Shown here: piece after piece, positions 36,447 through 44,130 of the stretch | How positions within the stretch are numbered: the first letter of the stretch is position 1 | Layout of the letters: every line of letters begins with the position of its first letter | From: Corynebacterium renale | GTDB taxonomy: Bacteria; Actinomycetota; Actinomycetes; Mycobacteriales; Mycobacteriaceae | Length of the DNA stretch: 64,000 bases | Assembly (NCBI RefSeq): GCF_002563965.1 | Contig: NZ_PDJF01000001.1 | Location: forward strand, 1,240,001 to 1,304,000 | Direction of reading: 5' to 3' | The notes under the pieces: model-generated | The model's database searches: none | Told to the model about the DNA's origin: nothing | The model's input: only the letters and a program-made list of their open reading frames with translations | Position numbers and translations under genes: made by a program

Positions 36447-36522
36447 TGGTGCGCCATCAGGGGATCGAACCCCGGACCCACTGATTAAGAGTCAGTTGCT
36501 CTACCATCTGAGCTAATGGCGC
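36447..36522 (-). tRNA. tRNA-Lys (anticodon CTT)
   Basis: On the minus strand acceptor arms GCGCCAT (from 36522) and ATGGCGC pair, the anticodon stem ACTGA/TCAGT encloses CTCTTAA (anticodon CTT), and the T-arm GGTTCGATCCC is standard. CCA is encoded at the 3' end (36449-36447). Confidence 0.95.
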
Positions 36523-36855
36523 TTGCTGCTTTCTGAAGCGCTAGGCGCTCGCTGCAACGATGAATACTTTACAACTAAGCCTTGTTGTTGCAAAATCGGC
36601 AGGTCATTGCACTATTTTGCAGTGTGAGAACGTAGGTTGGTTGGCCGCCTGAGGCGTGCGCGTCGTGACGGTTGAGATTTAGCTGGGGTTGTCGCTGAAT
36701 CATCTGGGGTGCTGTGGCGGGAATGGGGATGAGGTCAATCGTGTTGTGAAGGTATAACGAATTGGTTACGAAGTTGTGGACACGCTAACAAGGCCGGCAC
36801 AGCCTGCGATTGACTAACTAGTGTGGACAAAAGTTGTTCGTAGATGAGGTGAAGG
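36523..36855. other. 333-bp intergenic region between tRNA-Lys and the L,D-transpeptidase gene
   Basis: The left end holds the tRNA-Lys promoter (see next entry). The rest has no ORF with coding character. Possible -10 hexamers for the transpeptidase gene are TATAAC near 36753 and TAGTGT near 36821, neither with a clear -35. GAGGTGAAGG directly before ATG 36856 is its ribosome site, so this gene is leadered. Confidence 0.5.
36566..36593 (-). promoter_or_regulatory. tRNA-Lys promoter
   Basis: On the minus strand TTGCAA (36593-36588) and TAAAGT (36571-36566) are separated by 16 bp, a good -35/-10 pair 40-odd bases before the mature tRNA. Confidence 0.6.
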
Positions 36856-38067
36856 ATGCGGAATAAGGCTCGCCACAACTCAACGGGGCGCACGTTTGTG
36901 CGTGGCTGGCGCTCGGCGGTGGCTGCTCTTGCGGTGGTCATCGTTGCTGGTTTAGGCGCGACGGCGTGCACTATTGACATGTCGACTGCCCGGGAAACGG
37001 AAGCTGCCCAGGAGACTCCTGAACCTAAGCCGGCACCTGAGGTGTCGGTGCGTAATAATGCCACCGGTGTTAATCCAAAGGATCCCGTGACTGTGCGCAC
37101 TCAAGACGTGGCCTTACGCGATGTCACCATGGTGAATGAAGAAGGCTACAAGGTGGAGTCGGAGTTGTCCTCCGACAAGAAATCGTGGACGTCCGCTGAA
37201 ACCCTGGGGTATAACCGCACCTACACCGTGACCGCGACGGATGAGAACGGCACGACGACGAAGGCCACTTTTAACACTATTGCCCCTACTGCGCAGATGG
37301 GTGTTGCGCTAAGCCCGCTGGAGGGCATCACGGTGGGGGTGGCCCAGACGATTGGTTTCCGTTTCGGCGACATTGTGCAGGATCGCAAAGCTGCTGAAGC
37401 TGCGCTGACGGTTAAGACTGAACCTGCCGTGGAGGGCGCCTTCTACTGGCTGAGCCCTTACGAGGTGCGGTGGCGTCCAGCCGAATTTTGGCAGCCCGGA
37501 ACTAAGGTGAGCGTTAAGGCTGATATTTACGGTAAGGACTTGGGCAATGGTGTCTACGGTTCCTCTGATAACGCGACATCGTTCACCATCGGTGACGATG
37601 TGCGCACGATCATTGATGACGCCACCAAAACCATGACCGTCAAGCGTGGCGACGAAGTTTTGCGCACCATCCCGGTGTCATTGGGCCGCGATGTGGAACG
37701 CTGGGCCACTCCGAATGGCTACTACATCATCGGCGATAAGTACGATTCCCTTATCATGGACTCTTCCACGTTTGGGTATTCCATTGCGGAGGGTGGTTAC
37801 CGCACTGAGGTTGATTACGCCACCCAAATGTCTTATTCGGGAATCTATGTCCATGCTGCGCCTTGGTCAGTGGCACAGCAGGGGAATACTAATACTTCCC
37901 ATGGTTGCGTGAACGTGACGACGGAAGCCGCCCAGTGGTTCCAGAATACCGTCAAGCGGGGCGATCCGGTGCTGGTGCAGAACACTGTCGGCGGGGTCTT
38001 GAACGGGGCGGATGGTCTCGGCGACTGGAACATCGACTGGGAGACCTGGAAGGCTGGCAACGCTTAA
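36856..38067 (+). CDS. L,D-transpeptidase (YkuD domain) lipoprotein with Ig-like domains
   Basis: A 403-residue exported cell-wall enzyme. A basic N-terminus and hydrophobic stretch end in a lipobox-like ATAC (about residues 35-38). Two beta-rich Ig-like regions follow (about 60-245), then a YkuD domain whose catalytic motif is HAAPWS...TSHGCVNV with the nucleophile cysteine in SHGC. It makes 3-3 peptidoglycan cross-links, as mycobacterial LdtMt2-type proteins do. A C-terminal [10 protein letters not shown] segment matches that group. It stands alone, with its own promoter region. Confidence 0.92.
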
Positions 38068-38304
38068 GCGCTTCTCGACGTCCTTCCGGTCCCTTTCCTT
38101 AAACGAGGTAAGGGGCCGTTTCCTATGCTTAGCTCAACTTTTCCTCGCGTGAAAAGTCTAGGCAACAGGTGTAAGTTCTGCTACGGTAAGCAGTACATGT
38201 GCGCGTTGGTTGCACGAGGGGCGTTGGGGGAACCGAATTAGGGGGATTCCACGTCGAATAACTATGGGGAAAGTCCCCGTTCTTTGATCGCGTGGGAGGG
38301 AAGC

Positions 38305-38958
38305 GTGAAAACACTACGTGTATGCGTGGCCGCAATCGTGGCTGCGTTGTCTGTGGGCTTAACTGGGTGTTCTCCTGGTGGTTCGGAAGGTGGAACCGAT
38401 GAGGCGCAGGCAGCGGTCAGTGTGTCTCCGGTAGCCGGTGCCGGGAAAGGCGAGAAGAAATCGCCAGATTTCTTGAAAGAACCACTCGTTGTGGGGGAAT
38501 ATCCTGCCCTGGACTTTTCGTTAGATGTCCCAGTGGTATGCAAGGAAATTCCCGTGCAGTTCTTGGAAGAGGTGTTGGATTCTCGTTTGAGCCTTGATAT
38601 GTCTGACAAAGGCGGCTTTGCCAATGCCTCTGTCTGCAGTTTTAGGGATAAGGGCCCGAAAGAGAATTTGCCAGCCTATAGGTATTACGTGGCGATGGAT
38701 ATGGCACCCAAAGAGTCGGTGACAAAAGAGGGCGAAGTCCTACACGATAGCGTTTCCGCAAAGTATCCGGCTATGTACGCTCATTATTTCGAAGAATCAA
38801 GTCAAGCCTGTACAGCGTCTATACCAACTACGCGCGGCGCTTTACGCCTAAGTTACGAGCCGAGCTTGGGTGAAATGCAGTGGCCTCCGCAGCCGAAAAA
38901 ATACTGTCCGCGCGCGGTTAGCACCCTTGAAAAATTGATTTCCGAATTGGGGGGATAA
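38305..38958 (+). CDS. DUF3558-like lipoprotein
   Basis: A 217-residue lipoprotein: signal peptide ending in LTGC (about residue 22), a Gly/Ser/Glu linker, and a mature domain with paired cysteines (VVCKEIP, SVCSFRD, SQACTAS, KYCPRA) resembling DUF3558. Start GTG 38305 has GGAGG 5 nt upstream; TTG 38284 is rejected. Its TAA stop overlaps the ATG of the next gene by one base, so the two proteins are probably made together. DUF3558 lipoproteins have no known function; assignment to the family is by eye. Confidence 0.7.
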   Translation: MKTLRVCVAAIVAALSVGLTGCSPGGSEGGTDEAQAAVSVSPVAGAGKGEKKSPDFLKEPLVVGEYPALDFSLDVPVVCKEIPVQFLEEVLDSRLSLDMSDKGGFANASVCSFRDKGPKENLPAYRYYVAMDMAPKESVTKEGEVLHDSVSAKYPAMYAHYFEESSQACTASIPTTRGALRLSYEPSLGEMQWPPQPKKYCPRAVSTLEKLISELGG

Positions 38959-40691
38959 TGAATTTTGAAGTAGATCAGCAATTTGTGGCTGATACGGTCC
39001 AGAGGCTCAATGCCACGAGCGAAGATCTGGACGGCAATGTTTATTCGACGCGAGGAAATGGTCTTGCTCGATTTTCACGGGTGTCTGGTCTTGACCACTA
39101 TGGGCGAGTCCATAGTGACGTATTGGAGAAGCACCAATCATCTGCTCGAGGTCTCTTGGAGAAGTTCAGTGCCTACGTTAACTGGGTTTCGCAAACGCTC
39201 GGACGGAATACCCAGGTTGCGTTCCTGCAGGAAAACCTGTTTAAAGCTGTCCTTGGACACGCGGACGTTGGCTTTGACGCTAATGCTGAAGCCATCTCCT
39301 TTGAGAAGGCGCCACCTATTACCGCGCATCCTTTCGGGATAACACCAGCGGTGATTATTCCGCCGTTATCTTTCGGTGAGCTCGAGCAACAATTCTTAAC
39401 CACGGATACGGCAGCAATGACCTCTGGCCAACAATCCTGGGAAGAAATCAACGCCGGTATGGCTGATCTTGCAGCTAGGTTCACCCAGCTTGCTGGAGAT
39501 GTCAACACTGTCAACACCGGCCCACAATTTGACCGTGCGTCAGAAACCCTGGCTGATGTGGCAAAACTTGCTCATAACTTCAGTCTCAATGGTGCGGGTG
39601 TGCGCAGTGGGCTTGTCGGTATGCAGGCAGCACACGGGTGGGGTAGCCAATACGTTCGGGCAGCACATGCAGCGTTAGCACTTATCCCGGTTCCTGCTGA
39701 GCGTATTGCTGCTGAACAAGCATTGCTCCAGGCGTGGCCGCCGTTGTGGTCGGTATTTGCTGAGTTTTCCCGCCCACCGGTTGAGACTCTTATTGGTGCC
39801 CCAACGCAGAACAACGGAAACGGTGGAGTTGCTGAGGCGAAGACTGATGCTGTGGCTGTGAATTCTTTCCGTGAGGCTTTAGCTGCGATGACTCCGACGA
39901 GTCAGGCAGAAATTGAGCATGTTATGCGTGCTGCACCGGAATCGGCACAGTTCTTGCGCGCGGCTGCGGAGCCGCCTCGTATCACTGGTGGTGGGGCCTT
40001 AACGGAGATCGCGTCGCTTGCACCAGCAGCGCAGTCCGCGGCGGTGCCGTCATTAGGTGGAATGACACCGGGTATTCCGGGGAGCTTGGGTCCTGTGTCC
40101 GGGACGTCGCCAAGTACGGCTGCGAATGTGGGTTCTTTACCTGGTTCTGGTGTCCTGGGAAACGGTGGCATGGGAGCGGCCGGAATCGGAGGAATCGGTC
40201 AGGGCGGGACGCTGCGTGGCAACGTTGGCCCGGGAACCAGCAGGATCGGTAGTTTGGGCCACGCCGGCGCTCTTCGAGGTAATGCGACGTCGGGGGCTGC
40301 TGGAGTAAGTGGGTTGCACGGCGCAACAGGCGCCGGTGGTGTTGGTTCCCCGCGTTCAGGGTTTGGTGGCACCGGTTTTGGTGGGGCTGCTGCCGGTAGT
40401 CATGCCGGTGCTCTTGGTCGTGGATTAGGTGTAAGCATGACAGGCCCCGGCACACCCGGCGGAGGCGCCGGTACATCTGGTTTCGGTTCCGCTTCAGCAT
40501 CCCAGGGTTCCGCCTCTCAGGGGGTGCGTGGTGGCCACCCGATGATGGCTGGTGGTGCACCGATGGGAGCTGGTGGTTCTCGGGAGAAGAAGCAGATGAA
40601 AGCGGTGACAAGTGTCGTCGAGAGGCAAGGCAATCTGAAGGCTTTGTTGGGTGATGGTGATCCCGTGGTCCCGCGTCTTATTGGACGCTAA
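38958..40691 (+). CDS. PPE/WXG-like helical protein with Gly-rich repeat region
   Basis: A 577-residue protein without signal peptide. Residues 1-100 and about 135-290 are helical and alanine-rich, like WXG100/PPE-type proteins. Residues about 340-540 are Gly/Ser/Ala-rich and repetitive (GGMG, GIGG, GFGGTGFGG). The last 30 residues become ordered again, with ERQGNLKALLGDGDPVVPRL close to the end, a tail I associate with actinobacterial PPE-like proteins (memory only). It may be a type VII substrate or surface protein, but no secretion genes are near. It is coupled to the DUF3558-like lipoprotein gene. Confidence 0.65.
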   Translation: MNFEVDQQFVADTVQRLNATSEDLDGNVYSTRGNGLARFSRVSGLDHYGRVHSDVLEKHQSSARGLLEKFSAYVNWVSQTLGRNTQVAFLQENLFKAVLGHADVGFDANAEAISFEKAPPITAHPFGITPAVIIPPLSFGELEQQFLTTDTAAMTSGQQSWEEINAGMADLAARFTQLAGDVNTVNTGPQFDRASETLADVAKLAHNFSLNGAGVRSGLVGMQAAHGWGSQYVRAAHAALALIPVPAERIAAEQALLQAWPPLWSVFAEFSRPPVETLIGAPTQNNGNGGVAEAKTDAVAVNSFREALAAMTPTSQAEIEHVMRAAPESAQFLRAAAEPPRITGGGALTEIASLAPAAQSAAVPSLGGMTPGIPGSLGPVSGTSPSTAANVGSLPGSGVLGNGGMGAAGIGGIGQGGTLRGNVGPGTSRIGSLGHAGALRGNATSGAAGVSGLHGATGAGGVGSPRSGFGGTGFGGAAAGSHAGALGRGLGVSMTGPGTPGGGAGTSGFGSASASQGSASQGVRGGHPMMAGGAPMGAGGSREKKQMKAVTSVVERQGNLKALLGDGDPVVPRLIGR

Positions 40692-40701
40692 CGGGAAACA
40701 C

Positions 40702-40739
40702 TGAAGGCCGGTACAACGTGAACGTTGTACCGGCCTTCA
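40702..40739 (+). terminator. Strong hairpin after the PPE-like gene
   Basis: A perfect 17-bp stem (40702-40718 with 40723-40739) and a TGAA tetraloop start 10 nt after the stop codon. The following sequence TCTTTGG is only weakly T-rich. It also overlaps the distal end of the SorC relic on the other strand. Confidence 0.7.
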
Positions 40740-41018
40740 TCTTTGGAGTGACTGATCACACGTTTGGTCTGTCGGGTGTACGATGCGTACGCCGTGCAGA
40801 TTGTAGCGTTGTGTCAGCTGCTAAACGATATGTTCATCAGCCTCTTGCGGTTCATGCACCTCGATGGAGACATACCGGCGAACCTTTGCATGTTGCAAAA
40901 GCTTTGCAATAGTTGGCCTCGCAAAACCTATTTTTGCGTCAACCTTTGTCTGGCTCATCCCAGAACGGTGATAGAGCTTGGTGATAGTCAAGGAATCCCG
41001 ATCACGTGTGTCCGTGTA
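40737..41018 (-). pseudogene. Remnant of a SorC-family transcriptional regulator
   Basis: On the minus strand an open frame without ATG near its start encodes ITKLYHRSGMSQ..., ARPTIAKLLQHAKV and YVSIEVHEP, which matches the N-terminal helix-turn-helix of SorC-type regulators (LYYxxGxSQxxIAxxLxxSRPTVSRLL). After an in-frame TAG (40823-40821) the homology-like sequence goes on (QLTQRYNLHGVRIVHP), resembling the start of the sugar-binding domain, and stops at TGA 40739-40737. A full SorC protein has over 300 residues, so at most the first quarter remains. A start at TTG 40991 or ATG 40958 would give 56 or 45 residues. Confidence 0.6.
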
Positions 41019-41080
41019 CTATACGTTAATACCGAGTGGGAGAGTTCGCGTACCGAAATATTATCAAGTTTGGTCTCGTC

Positions 41081-41539
41081 TTAATTCTCATCAAGCCACG
41101 AAGCCAGTTGGTGGCTGGCCTCGCGTGTCTCGTGGATCACCACGCCTAATTGTGTATCTCGCGCGGAGACAGCCAGCACCAGGTGGTCCAACGGGGGATA
41201 CACAATCGATGAGAGCACGAGTACACCGTCAGGAAGCGCCACTGAGACCACCGCATCCGCCGTACTGTTGGCATCTGCATCGGGGTCTAAAAGCCGCACC
41301 TGCGAGTCCGCGACTCCCAGCATTGACGAATTCAACGCCGCCATCGCCGCCGCATCCTCCGGAGTTGCCAGCCCTAGCGAACAGATGTGTAACCCATCGC
41401 CCGTACCCAGCAGAATCGAATACACTCCGGCATTGTCGGCTCGGATCCGTGATAGGTACGGCATCGTCGCCCGCGCAATCTCATTGGTATCAAAATTCTG
41501 GCCTCGGATCTTCCGATGCCTGGCAGCACGATCACTCAC
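41081..41539 (-). CDS. Roadblock/LC7-domain protein (partner of the GTPase)
   Basis: A 152-residue protein with an alpha/beta Roadblock/LC7 fold: after a basic 25-residue N-terminus, segments such as AGVYSILLGTGDGLHICSLG and DGVLVLSSIVYPPLDHLVLAVSA are typical. In Streptomyces conservons and the myxobacterial MglAB pair, Roadblock proteins regulate a small GTPase. The start is GTG 41539 with GAGGA inside the upstream gene at proper distance; the two genes are 2 nt apart. No membrane segment is seen. Confidence 0.75.
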   Translation of the reverse strand: MSDRAARHRKIRGQNFDTNEIARATMPYLSRIRADNAGVYSILLGTGDGLHICSLGLATPEDAAAMAALNSSMLGVADSQVRLLDPDADANSTADAVVSVALPDGVLVLSSIVYPPLDHLVLAVSARDTQLGVVIHETREASHQLASWLDEN

Positions 41540-41541
41540 GT

Positions 41542-42147
41542 CTATTCCTCGTCTTCCTGCGCGCTCATTGAACGCTCAATCGCCGCACTCGCCACCGTCA
41601 CCACATCCGCGTTGAAACGTGGATCGGCAGTCATCACCGGGACTTGCTCTAAGCCCAACTCAGCCATCGCGGACCGCGCCCGATCGAGCGCGCCTTCTGT
41701 AGCAAAATTGATCGCCACAACCCCCCGCGAGGCTAGCGATTCCACCGCCTGCGCCCAGTAACGCACCTGATTGACCAGCCCCTCATCGCTGTCATCTCCG
41801 TACACCCACAGCACTACACCGGCACTCGGATTAGCCAACATCGACCTGCTCCGCGAAAACCGCTCATGTCCCGGTGAGCCAAACAAACCTACTACCCCGA
41901 ATGGGCTGTCTTCCCACAGCCCAAAGTCGATGCCCACGGTCACCGTCGTCTTCTCCCCATCAGGTACCGACATAGCCGCCTCTGTGTTGATCGGCTCATG
42001 CGTCGCTAGAGTTCGCACCGCCGTCGTCTTACCTATTCCTGGGTCGCCGACGAATAACACCTCATGTGCTGACGGTGACCCAATGAAAGCCGTATCCAAG
42101 CGTTCCCGCAGTCCAGTGTTCCCATCCACGTGACGATGCCGAGTCAC
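41542..42147 (-). CDS. Small Ras-like GTPase of the CvnD/MglA type
   Basis: A 201-residue P-loop protein. G1 motif GDPGIGKTTAV (about 34-44), a G3-like GSPGHERF (about 90-97, where Ras has DxxG) and a hydrophobic VVLWVYGDD strand fit the prokaryotic small-GTPase family in Streptomyces conservons (CvnD). The usual NKxD G4 motif is not clear; NFATEG occupies that place. Start GTG 42147 has GAGGAGG 5 nt upstream. It forms a two-gene operon with the Roadblock gene. Function is inferred as a switch protein. Confidence 0.75.
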   Translation of the reverse strand: MTRHRHVDGNTGLRERLDTAFIGSPSAHEVLFVGDPGIGKTTAVRTLATHEPINTEAAMSVPDGEKTTVTVGIDFGLWEDSPFGVVGLFGSPGHERFSRSRSMLANPSAGVVLWVYGDDSDEGLVNQVRYWAQAVESLASRGVVAINFATEGALDRARSAMAELGLEQVPVMTADPRFNADVVTVASAAIERSMSAQEDEE

Positions 42148-42296
42148 CAGTACCTCCTCACACCAACCAACTTGAACGTTTATACAAAACCTACCTTAGG
42201 AAGTGTAGGAGGAGTATATAAGGGTATTATTGCAATATCCGAGCTATCGCTTGGCTTATTCATAATCGTACGTAAGAAAAGGATAAGGAAGAAGAC

Positions 42297-42665
42297 ATGT
42301 CGCTCCAAGACGACCTTAACAACCTCCTCAATAGTATCGCCGACGACGTTGACGGCTTCATCGGCGGCTCCATCGTAGACCTCGACACGGGTATGTCCAT
42401 GGCGTCTATCTCACGGCGCCCCGACTTCGACCTCGACGTCGCCTCTGCCTACAACTCCGAAATGGTCAAAGCTAAGCTCAAGACCATCTCTGCCCTGAAT
42501 ATTTCCTCCAACCTCGAGGACATGCTGCTGACCCTGACTGACCAGCTTCACCTCATCAGGATGCTCGACAACAATCGGTTCGTTTACATCGCCGTCGCCC
42601 GTGAATCCACCAACCTCGCACTCCTGCGCTCCGTGGTGAACTCGCACGCCCGCGTTTTGGGATGA
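42297..42665 (+). CDS. Second Roadblock/LC7-domain protein, divergent
   Basis: A 122-residue Roadblock-like protein: an N-terminal helix (LQDDLNNLLNSIADDV), a beta segment (GFIGGSIVDLDTGMSMASI) and a long helix, ending in a beta-helix unit (RFVYIAVARESTNLALLRSVV). AAGGAAG before ATG 42297 is the ribosome site, and TATATAAG near 42215 may be its -10. It is transcribed away from the GTPase-Roadblock operon across a 149-bp AT-rich region, suggesting shared control. The frame stays open for 43 further codons after the TGA stop. Confidence 0.75.
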   Translation: MSLQDDLNNLLNSIADDVDGFIGGSIVDLDTGMSMASISRRPDFDLDVASAYNSEMVKAKLKTISALNISSNLEDMLLTLTDQLHLIRMLDNNRFVYIAVARESTNLALLRSVVNSHARVLG

Positions 42666-43107
42666 AGAGTACGCGCCGCCGTACAACCTCCCCTTGATGG
42701 TGAAACGGACGTTGTAGTTGCCCCTGAGTACGAGCAGCCTGTCTGGAAGACAATGCTGCCGTGGCGATTGGGCAGGCGTACACAATCGAGGCGGTAGAAG
42801 TAGGCGCCGAGCCCGACCCAGCGTCGCCCAGCAGGCCGAAAAGCCACGCGTATCGCGCAGGTAGCCCCAGGACAACAATCTCAGGCCAGGCAGCCTTCAA
42901 GCTGTCCAGTCTGCTTCCTCGTTAGCATACAGCGTATAGGCCTGCCTCACAGGGCTGTACGCGCCGAGGCGCTGCCCGCGCGGCACTTCGAGGGGAGTTA
43001 ACCTGTGCGCAGGTGATGGTAATGTACGGAATTTTTGCCGGGCAATATGGCCACGATGCCGTCGGAAAAACTTGAAACAGCCGACGCAACGCCAGGCTAG
43101 AGGGCGA
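42666..43107. other. Gene-poor stretch with decayed open frames
   Basis: No complete gene is supported. The frame of the Roadblock gene continues 43 codons after its TGA (to TAG near 42797). A second plus-strand frame could start at GTG 42761 and ends at 42925 (54 codons). On the minus strand a frame without start codon runs from beyond 43150 to TGA 42897, ending in EEADWTA and containing CVGC. These fragments overlap and probably are remnants of lost genes; I recognise none. Confidence 0.35.
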
Positions 43108-43365
43108 GTTAGAAAGTGCCCCGGACAGGGTTGTGTGTCAGGACATAGTTGACACTTTCTAACAACCGGCGGAAACCAGTGGCAGTTGACACATCAGGCG
43201 GGACATTACTGACACCAATCGTCGGTATCAACCCAACATGTTAAAGAACACGCAACGATGAAAAACAAGAGCACCGTGGATCAAGAACAATGTTCTTAAT
43301 TCACGGTGCTCACTGTCAACCATGTCGCGACGGATACTGTCAAGTATGTCCCGACTGATCACATA
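43108..43365. repeat. Relic repeats resembling IS481-type element ends
   Basis: GTTAGAAAGTG (43108-43118) and CACTTTCTAAC (43153-43163) form a perfect 11-bp inverted repeat. Between and after them come variants of TGTCAACTATGTCCTGACA: rightward forms at about 43138-43155 and 43184-43215, opposite forms at about 43313-43352. Such repeats are familiar from ends of IS481-family elements in actinobacteria (from memory). No transposase is present, so it would be a scar beside tRNA-His. Confidence 0.45.
43261..43311 (-). terminator. Terminator of tRNA-His
   Basis: Outer 10-bp stem GAGCACCGTG/CACGGTGCTC (43269-43278, 43302-43311) with an inner 7-bp stem AAGAACA/TGTTCTT. On the minus strand it is followed by TTGTTTTTC, downstream of tRNA-His. 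Confidence 0.75.
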
Positions 43366-43367
43366 GG

Positions 43368-43441
43368 GGTGACTGACGGGGCTCGAACCCGCGACACCCA
43401 GGATCACAACCTGGTGCTCTACCAACTGAACTACAGTCACC
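43368..43441 (-). tRNA. tRNA-His (anticodon GTG)
   Basis: On the minus strand the acceptor GTGACTG pairs with CAGTCAC; the anticodon stem CCAGG/CCTGG encloses TTGTGAT, anticodon GTG. The extra G at position -1 (43441) and the discriminator C (43368), both hallmarks of tRNA-His, are encoded. No CCA. Confidence 0.95.
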
Positions 43442-43494
43442 ATCGCAGCACTCTTCAACGAATGCAGCGAGAACTACCTTAGCCTATAAGCCAG

Positions 43495-44130
43495 TTAATG
43501 CAAAAACTGCTGGTAGGAAGCCGTTGCTTGGCGTGCAGCTTCCTTGGATTCGCTGCTGCTCGGGCCGGGTTCGTCGACGAAGACGGCGCGTCGGTAGTAA
43601 TCCAGCTCCTGAATTGACTCCACAATGTCTGCTAGGGCGCGGTGCGCCATCCCTTTTTCCGGCTGGTTGAAATAAGCCTTGGAGTACCAGCGCTTGGTCA
43701 ATTCTTTAATGGTGGAGACGTCGATCATCCGGTAGTGGAGCGCCTCGTCGAGGCGTGGCATGTACTTGCGGATGAACGTGCGGTCGGTGGCGATGGAGTT
43801 GCCGGCCAGTGGTGCGGGGTGTTCCGGGTCGCAGTGCTCCGCGATGAGGTCCAGTACCTTTTGTTCTGCTTCCTCGATGGATGTGGGGGAGGACTTGATG
43901 TCGTCGAGTAGGCCGTTGCTTTGGTGCATGGAGGTGACAAAGTCGTCCATTTCGGCAAGTTGTTCGTCGGTGGCGTGGACGACGACGTCGACCCCGTCTC
44001 CGAGAATGTTGAGGTTTGCGTCGGTGATAAGGGCTGCGACTTCGACGATAACGTGGCGCTCGGTGTCGAGCCCTGTCATTTCGAGGTCAATCCAGACAAT
44101 GCGGTCATTTTTTGGTTTCGTCTCAGACAT
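43495..44130 (-). CDS. orn: Oligoribonuclease
   Basis: A 211-residue DEDDh 3'-5' exonuclease degrading 2-5 nt RNAs and pGpG/pApA-type dinucleotides. The catalytic motifs [10 protein letters not shown] (ExoI), [10 protein letters not shown] (ExoII) and [11 protein letters not shown] (ExoIII) are intact. TATGCT (44142-44137) ends 6 nt before ATG 44130, so it is probably leaderless. Next to cmrA it matches the Rv2511-Rv2509 region; here nrdDG lies between them. Confidence 0.95.

Follow-up and report, generated by a model that had tools for sequence, protein, structure and literature searches.

The systems closest to the locus described here combine a GTPase of the MglA family with proteins of the Roadblock type. 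According to Wuichet and Sogaard-Andersen 2014 (PMC4316618), Group 3 MglA systems of beta- and gamma-proteobacteria consist of one GTPase, one or two MglB and a receiver/winged-helix protein, and there are a few Group 1 cases with two MglB. The same paper describes an arginine beside the G2 threonine and TVPGQ in G3 for Group 1 MglA and notes an Asp-Gly pair for MglB of Groups 2–5. In Myxococcus xanthus a second Roadblock protein, MglC, joins RomR to MglB and is reported to have no measurable GAP activity (PMC10329633). MglB is reported to be both GAP and exchange factor (PMC11016934), and the Q82L variant of MglA is reported to have lost GTP hydrolysis and to be stably bound by MglB (PMC6876712). 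In the mycobacterial mfp systems the Asp-Gly loop of MfpD and the switch lysine of MfpB were proposed to serve hydrolysis (PMC13015309). As systems with one GTPase and two Roadblocks have already been described, the present module introduces no new principle. Nevertheless, nothing was found in the open-licence literature on such a trio in Corynebacterium or Microbacterium, as the original prediction had suspected for corynebacteria.

The window, i.e. the whole stretch of 64,000 nucleotides that was analysed, corresponds to positions 1240001–1304000 of the 2.35 Mb single-contig genome of Corynebacterium renale. It contains the following features (positions of the window):

41081–41539, minus strand: gene B, second Roadblock protein, 152 aa (open reading frame; predicted fold)
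41542–42147, minus strand: gene G, small GTPase of the MglA family, 201 aa (open reading frame; motifs and profiles)
42148–42296, no strand: divergent gap of 149 bp between A and G, presumed site of both promoters (from coordinates)
42297–42665, plus strand: gene A, Roadblock protein, 122 aa, divergent from G (open reading frame; predicted fold)

B lies downstream of G at a spacing of 2 bp and A starts divergently from G across the 149-bp gap. This layout confirms what had been noticed in the letters, namely a CvnD/MglA-like GTPase in one operon with a Roadblock protein and a second, different Roadblock protein divergent from the GTPase. RBS-like sequences can be seen by eye 5' of G (GAGGAGG) and 5' of A (AAGGAAG). 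A promoter consensus scan of positions 40600–43500 gave no excess of sites over shuffled sequences (1 versus 1.5), the terminator scan gave 3 sites versus 2.3 in shuffles, and there is no contrast in G+C content across the module.

None of the three proteins reaches the cut-off of a Pfam or NCBIfam model. For A, Pfam yields nothing up to an E-value of 1, B scores 18.2 bits on Robl_LC7 (cut-off 23), and G has only P-loop matches in Pfam, all of them sub-threshold, while its top NCBIfam match is the selB model, far below the cut-off (20.4 versus 242 bits). The AlphaFold2 models, computed with relatives, have the element order a-b-b-a-b-b-b-a for both A (pLDDT 94.1) and B (pLDDT 85.0), the latter with a predicted extra N-terminal helix. 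The best 50 Foldseek rows of A against PDB belong without exception to Roadblock, MglB, MglC or Ragulator (E-values 7e-8 to 4e-6), with MglC as the first match and 3kye, Asgard Roadblock3 and MglB among the neighbours. The match to MglC has a TM-score of 0.62 and an rmsd of 5.3, both poorer than those of many MglB rows below it; the designation of A as MglC-like, which comes from this model comparison, is weak. Of the 50 best rows of B, 48 fall into the same four classes, with Asgard Roadblock3, 3kye and subunits of Ragulator among the neighbours; the remaining two are an axoneme entry that contains dynein and an entry for RagA/RagC. Thus, both A and B are predicted to adopt the Roadblock/LC7 fold, though both stay below the Pfam cut-off.

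Among PDB sequences, the profile of 13 B proteins finds Robl_LC7 chains as its top four matches, including Rv3364c (best E-value 0.0024), the A profile finds none up to an E-value of 1, and the profile of 13 G proteins finds Rab GTPases at the top (E-value 1e-6). A single-sequence protein search with G returned G itself alone. The homologues of G bear the marks of the MglA family, i.e. GxxGxGKT, Thr70 and GT[PA]GQ, with Gln in 119 of the 120 homologues listed, and the coupling to a Roadblock (MglB) gene typical of this family is present, B adjoining G in all 13 Corynebacterium genomes that carry them. The homologue lists comprise the best 120 of 1423 and the best 120 of 691. G is assigned to the MglA family by motifs and profiles, B is remotely CvnB-like, and A is a different Roadblock. 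The proposed family placement thus failed at the level of the curated models and stood at the level of the custom profiles for B and G and of the fold models for A and B.

Profile searches found B in 13 of 151 Corynebacterium genomes and G in the same 13. The earlier single-sequence search for G had given 17 of 151, from which G008, G093, G095 and G120 were set aside as other frames of 592–701 aa. A was found by single-sequence search in 17 of 151 genomes, namely the 13 with G and B and, in addition, G026, G085, G088 and G141. In all 12 other G-carrying genomes the trio has the same order as in the window, which is more than would be expected by chance. Between the window and these 12 modules A is the best conserved protein (61–70% identity), followed by B (43–53%) and G (38–45%). 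Clustered at 90%, G falls into a group of 8 sequences from 5 contigs.

When GTDB contigs were scanned with the alignment of A, 57 loci emerged. As these loci were identified via A, by means of two peptide patterns, the count of 42 loci carrying A, G and B together is conditional on A; all three genes had to lie within 4 kb, and frames longer than 600 aa were ignored. The gene order in the 42 loci is divergent B-G/A in 23, A-G-B in 12 and G-B-A in 7, three of the latter belonging to Steroidobacteraceae. The module occurs in Corynebacterium, Microbacterium, Micrococcus, Brachybacterium, Phycicoccus, Kineosphaera and other genera and spans at least six actinobacterial families (those in the tree are Corynebacteriaceae, Dermabacteraceae, Micrococcaceae, Microbacteriaceae, Dermatophilaceae and Intrasporangiaceae) as well as Steroidobacteraceae. 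The constancy of composition along with the variation of order argues for a functional set.

C. pilosum, C. lubricantis, C. cystitidis and C. breve have A but neither a module GTPase nor B. In all four species A is divergent from a YceI-domain gene, at the following positions:

L073, 7183–8369: A and YceI-domain gene
L109, 7305–8501: A and YceI-domain gene
L051, 7878–9080: A and YceI-domain gene
L053, 8278–9634: A and YceI-domain gene

C. breve has two more tandem A-like Roadblocks behind a ThiF-family gene (L054, 6969–9498), 42 and 37% identical to A of the window. In Acidobacteriota A is fused to a receiver and DUF4388 or stands in tandem behind a DUF4388 protein (L107, 7056–8369; L110, 698–2463). 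Behind A, Steroidobacteraceae and one Acidobacteria contig encode a larger P-loop protein of 500–548 aa (L111, 8423–10069; L113, 8350–9960; L107, 8458–9963). This protein contains VPGQ or TPGQ, its GTPase matches all stay sub-threshold, and it may be read as a second type of GTPase beside A.

The surroundings of the module differ from lineage to lineage. In the window neither of the two genes upstream matches a Pfam family, and the gene downstream encodes an exonuclease; the latter recurs together with one further gene close to the module of C. gottingense. The upstream pair (38284–40691, overlapping by 1 base) comprises a possible lipoprotein, with a weak NCBIfam match only, and a Gly/Ser-rich protein of 577 aa. 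The window (36447–44130) and the C. gottingense locus (L048, 9343–15659) have in common a locale near the module that comprises tRNA-Lys, a gene for a protein of about 400 aa, tRNA-His and the gene of the exonuclease, but the module does not lie on the same side of tRNA-His and this last gene in the two. Between A and tRNA-His (43095–43165) inverted-repeat-like stretches (ttagaaagtg ... cactttctaa) can be seen by eye, possibly a mobile-element remnant. Insertion linked to tRNA genes found no support (a tRNA gene is present in 7 of 25 loci, and the types differ).

Apart from the two genes common to the window and L048, surroundings are shared by L041–L044 and by L045 and L046, and little recurs around the other Corynebacterium modules. 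Of the 88 flanking frames listed, 77 (24 loci) were scanned for Pfam families, the most frequent being DEAD/Helicase_C (5 of 77), DUF3516 and PNP_UDP_1 (3 each), and then UvrB, CoaE and others (2 each). No kinase was found in the three window neighbours, and none is among the 25 of 68 Pfam families listed for the 77 flanking frames, the other 43 having at most one member each. As neighbours vary between lineages, a fixed neighbour as the output was rejected, and no pointer to an output was seen among the neighbours in the window, in the Corynebacterium loci or in the 77 frames. Nor was a common fourth gene seen across lineages by neighbour comparison.

Comparison with the proteobacterial systems was based on 25 loci from the class of Peristeroidobacter, which, judging by their class and layout, would be Group 3. 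Within flanks of about 1.5 kb at most, the GTPase is flanked by a B-like and an A-like Roadblock in 6 of them (4 of these 6 A-like matches being weak, 28–37 bits), by two B-like Roadblocks in 6 and by one in 8; one locus has an A-like Roadblock upstream only, and 4 have none. The extended profiles include Steroidobacteraceae and Ghiorsea proteins, so that their matches to L152, L153, L156 and L162 arise partly by construction; the A profile built from Corynebacterium only still gives 80–130 bits on L152, L153 and L156. The module is similar to Group 3 in having one GTPase with two unlike Roadblocks. It differs in its occurrence in Actinomycetota and in its own GTPase clade beside the 25 proteobacterial ones; by neighbour comparison, no conserved receiver/winged-helix partner was seen. 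The MglA/MglB/MglC system of M. xanthus likewise has one GTPase with two unlike Roadblocks, and MglC is the first Foldseek match of A; however, MglC acts with RomR and no RomR-like neighbour was seen at the module. In contrast to Group 1 MglA, the module GTPases have Thr at position 69 in 119 of the 120 homologues listed (Val in the window) and G[TVSIM][PAT]G[QH] as G3.

Conservons (CvnA-D; mfp of mycobacteria) share with the module an MglA-family GTPase without NKxD, with GT[PA]GQ and with DxR near its end, and a CvnB-like Roadblock with an Asp-Gly pair adjoining the GTPase. The extended B profile matched a Roadblock frame in all 32 conservon-type loci, though weakly (16.6–38.5 bits); with the narrower profile from Corynebacterium only, 12 of these loci pass an E-value of 0.01, and the A profile matches none of the 32. 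The module differs from conservons in its extra unlike Roadblock, in the absence of DUF742 at the cut-off and of a kinase in the neighbours scanned, and in a separate GTPase clade. None of the 151 Corynebacterium genomes has a DUF742 match at the cut-off (weak matches below it occur in 15), as against 37 of 98 control genomes of the class. With a DUF742 profile derived from 25 conservon loci, 31 loci of the set L126–L161 were matched and none of the 57 named loci or of the 18 from Corynebacterium. The original prediction that the DUF742 and kinase parts are missing therefore holds, for DUF742 after a full search of close relatives and for the kinase as far as the three window neighbours and the 77 flanking frames of 24 loci are concerned.

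In the tree of 81 GTPases the 30 module proteins form one clade (100/100) and the 25 CvnD proteins another (100/98); the program warned of long branches, including that of G of the window, and of their meeting between the clade of CvnD and that of the module. The 25 proteobacterial GTPases group with Ghiorsea at weaker support (94/72). Since the tree was rooted on CvnD by choice, it does not settle which group is nearest to the module. Eight module and seven conservon loci were left out by choice as near-copies, and L085, L115, L179 and L186 because they failed the motif or length filter; an MglA outgroup sought in three genomes gave 3 weak matches, all from one genome, and was not used.

The active site of G in the window is unusual. 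Its P-loop is GDPGIGKTT, Lys66 and Thr70 are present, G3 is GSPGHERF with His in place of Gln, there is no NKxD, and DPR stands in place of the G5 motif. Among the 120 homologues listed, itself included, it alone has His94 (Gln in the 119 others), Asp35 (Pro in 119) and Val69 (Thr in 119), the last adjoining the invariant Thr70, and it is also the only one with Ser91 (Thr in 115). In quick relative-rate trees of 20 rows its tip branch is the longest (1.64; the next is Brachybacterium with 1.31, and the next Corynebacterium has 0.71), whereas its mean distance to outgroups is barely the largest of 14 Corynebacterium (4.68 versus 4.67 for the next). On this measure A of the window ranks as the least diverged of the 14, and B comes next. 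The hydrolysis step is probably altered in G of C. renale. The sequence PGH is the motif of EF-Tu-type GTPases, and this, together with selB as the top NCBIfam match of G, speaks against a simple loss of function.

The model that we favor, and to which we would give an even chance, is an autonomous small-GTPase switch with G as the switch, B as its GAP-type partner and A as an adaptor. B has the Asp-Gly pair in 28 of 28 aligned proteins (Asp48-Gly49 in the window). A has Asp28 and Gly32 in 54 of 54, but Thr, Ser or Pro before Gly32 and hence no such pair. Lys66 of G is present in 116 of the 120 homologues listed, with Arg in the other 4. Since the pair is present in B and absent from A, and G has Lys66, these motifs lean towards B as the GAP-type partner and A as the adaptor. 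G would cycle between GTP and GDP forms, a B dimer would bind the switch regions of G-GTP, and the Asp-Gly loop of B together with Lys66 of G would promote hydrolysis, as proposed for MfpD on MfpB. An MglC-like A would dock as a dimer on B (or G) and couple the switch to partners encoded elsewhere. As no kinase gene was found among the neighbours scanned, the input would have to reach the switch in trans, probably via A, and the output would be whatever G-GTP binds. The joint occurrence of G and B in the same 13 genomes and of all three genes in 42 loci speaks for this model. The occurrence of A without module G in four Corynebacterium species, and its association or fusion with other signalling domains in Acidobacteriota, fit a separable adaptor; that A is more conserved than B and G would agree equally well with a central role. 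No neighbour points to an output, which counts against the model.

It is also conceivable, though somewhat unlikely, that A and B act oppositely on G, as the original prediction allowed, one as GAP and the other as exchange factor or blocker, or that they form a Ragulator-like A/B heterodimer. Two unlike Roadblocks accompany G in 13 of 13 Corynebacterium genomes, Ragulator heterodimer chains are among the fold matches of both A and B, and the double activity reported for MglB would agree with such roles; the lack of measurable GAP activity reported for MglC, a known second Roadblock, speaks against opposing roles, and the four Corynebacterium species with A alone speak against an obligate heterodimer. 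Highly improbable is the descent of the module from a CvnA-B-C-D operon by loss of the kinase and DUF742 and gain of a second Roadblock. The B profile matches in each of the 32 conservon-type loci and the K-x-T-T-T-V and G-T-P-G-Q type motifs common to G and CvnD are what such an origin would leave, but the absence of DUF742 from Corynebacterium and from the module loci, against its frequency in the class, and the separate GTPase clades (with the long-branch warning) led us to reject it, and the same trio in at least six families is further evidence against it. The original interpretation is thus supported in part; the terms "stripped-down" and "orphan", used originally for the locus, are not supported, as it is a conserved three-gene set with its own GTPase clade.

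The autonomous switch can be extended, tentatively, to a further kinase-free Ras-like group with one GTPase, a GAP-type Roadblock that is fixed and an adaptor Roadblock that is separable, in which C. renale may have abandoned glutamine catalysis; G would then be either a GTP-bound scaffold held by B, comparable to MglA Q82L held by MglB, or an enzyme using the histidine of PGH. The same substitutions could instead reflect decay of the C. renale GTPase or loss of its switching, with the module on its way out as in the species that have A only. Asp35, Val69 and His94, unique among the 120 homologues listed, the longest tip branch of 20 and the four species that keep A without G and B point in this direction. 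Nevertheless, the frame of G is open over 201 aa with Lys40, Thr41, Thr42, Lys66 and Thr70 kept, its 90% cluster holds 8 member sequences from 5 contigs, A and B of the window are the least and second least diverged of 14 Corynebacterium, and the distance of G hardly exceeds the next (4.68 versus 4.67), all of which makes decay unlikely.

Each part of the module is ordinary; what makes it unusual is the conservation of the trio in actinobacteria, apparently without a kinase, and a change of the active site specific to C. renale. Ras-like signalling in Actinomycetota has been discussed mostly in terms of kinase-bearing conservons, and the module represents a variant with three proteins in which no kinase gene was seen. 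Its small size would allow reconstitution in vitro, so that the reason why a single bacterial GTPase requires two dissimilar Roadblocks could be examined in a simple way. G of C. renale, in which the catalytic Gln has been replaced naturally, provides a ready variant for probing Roadblock-assisted hydrolysis.
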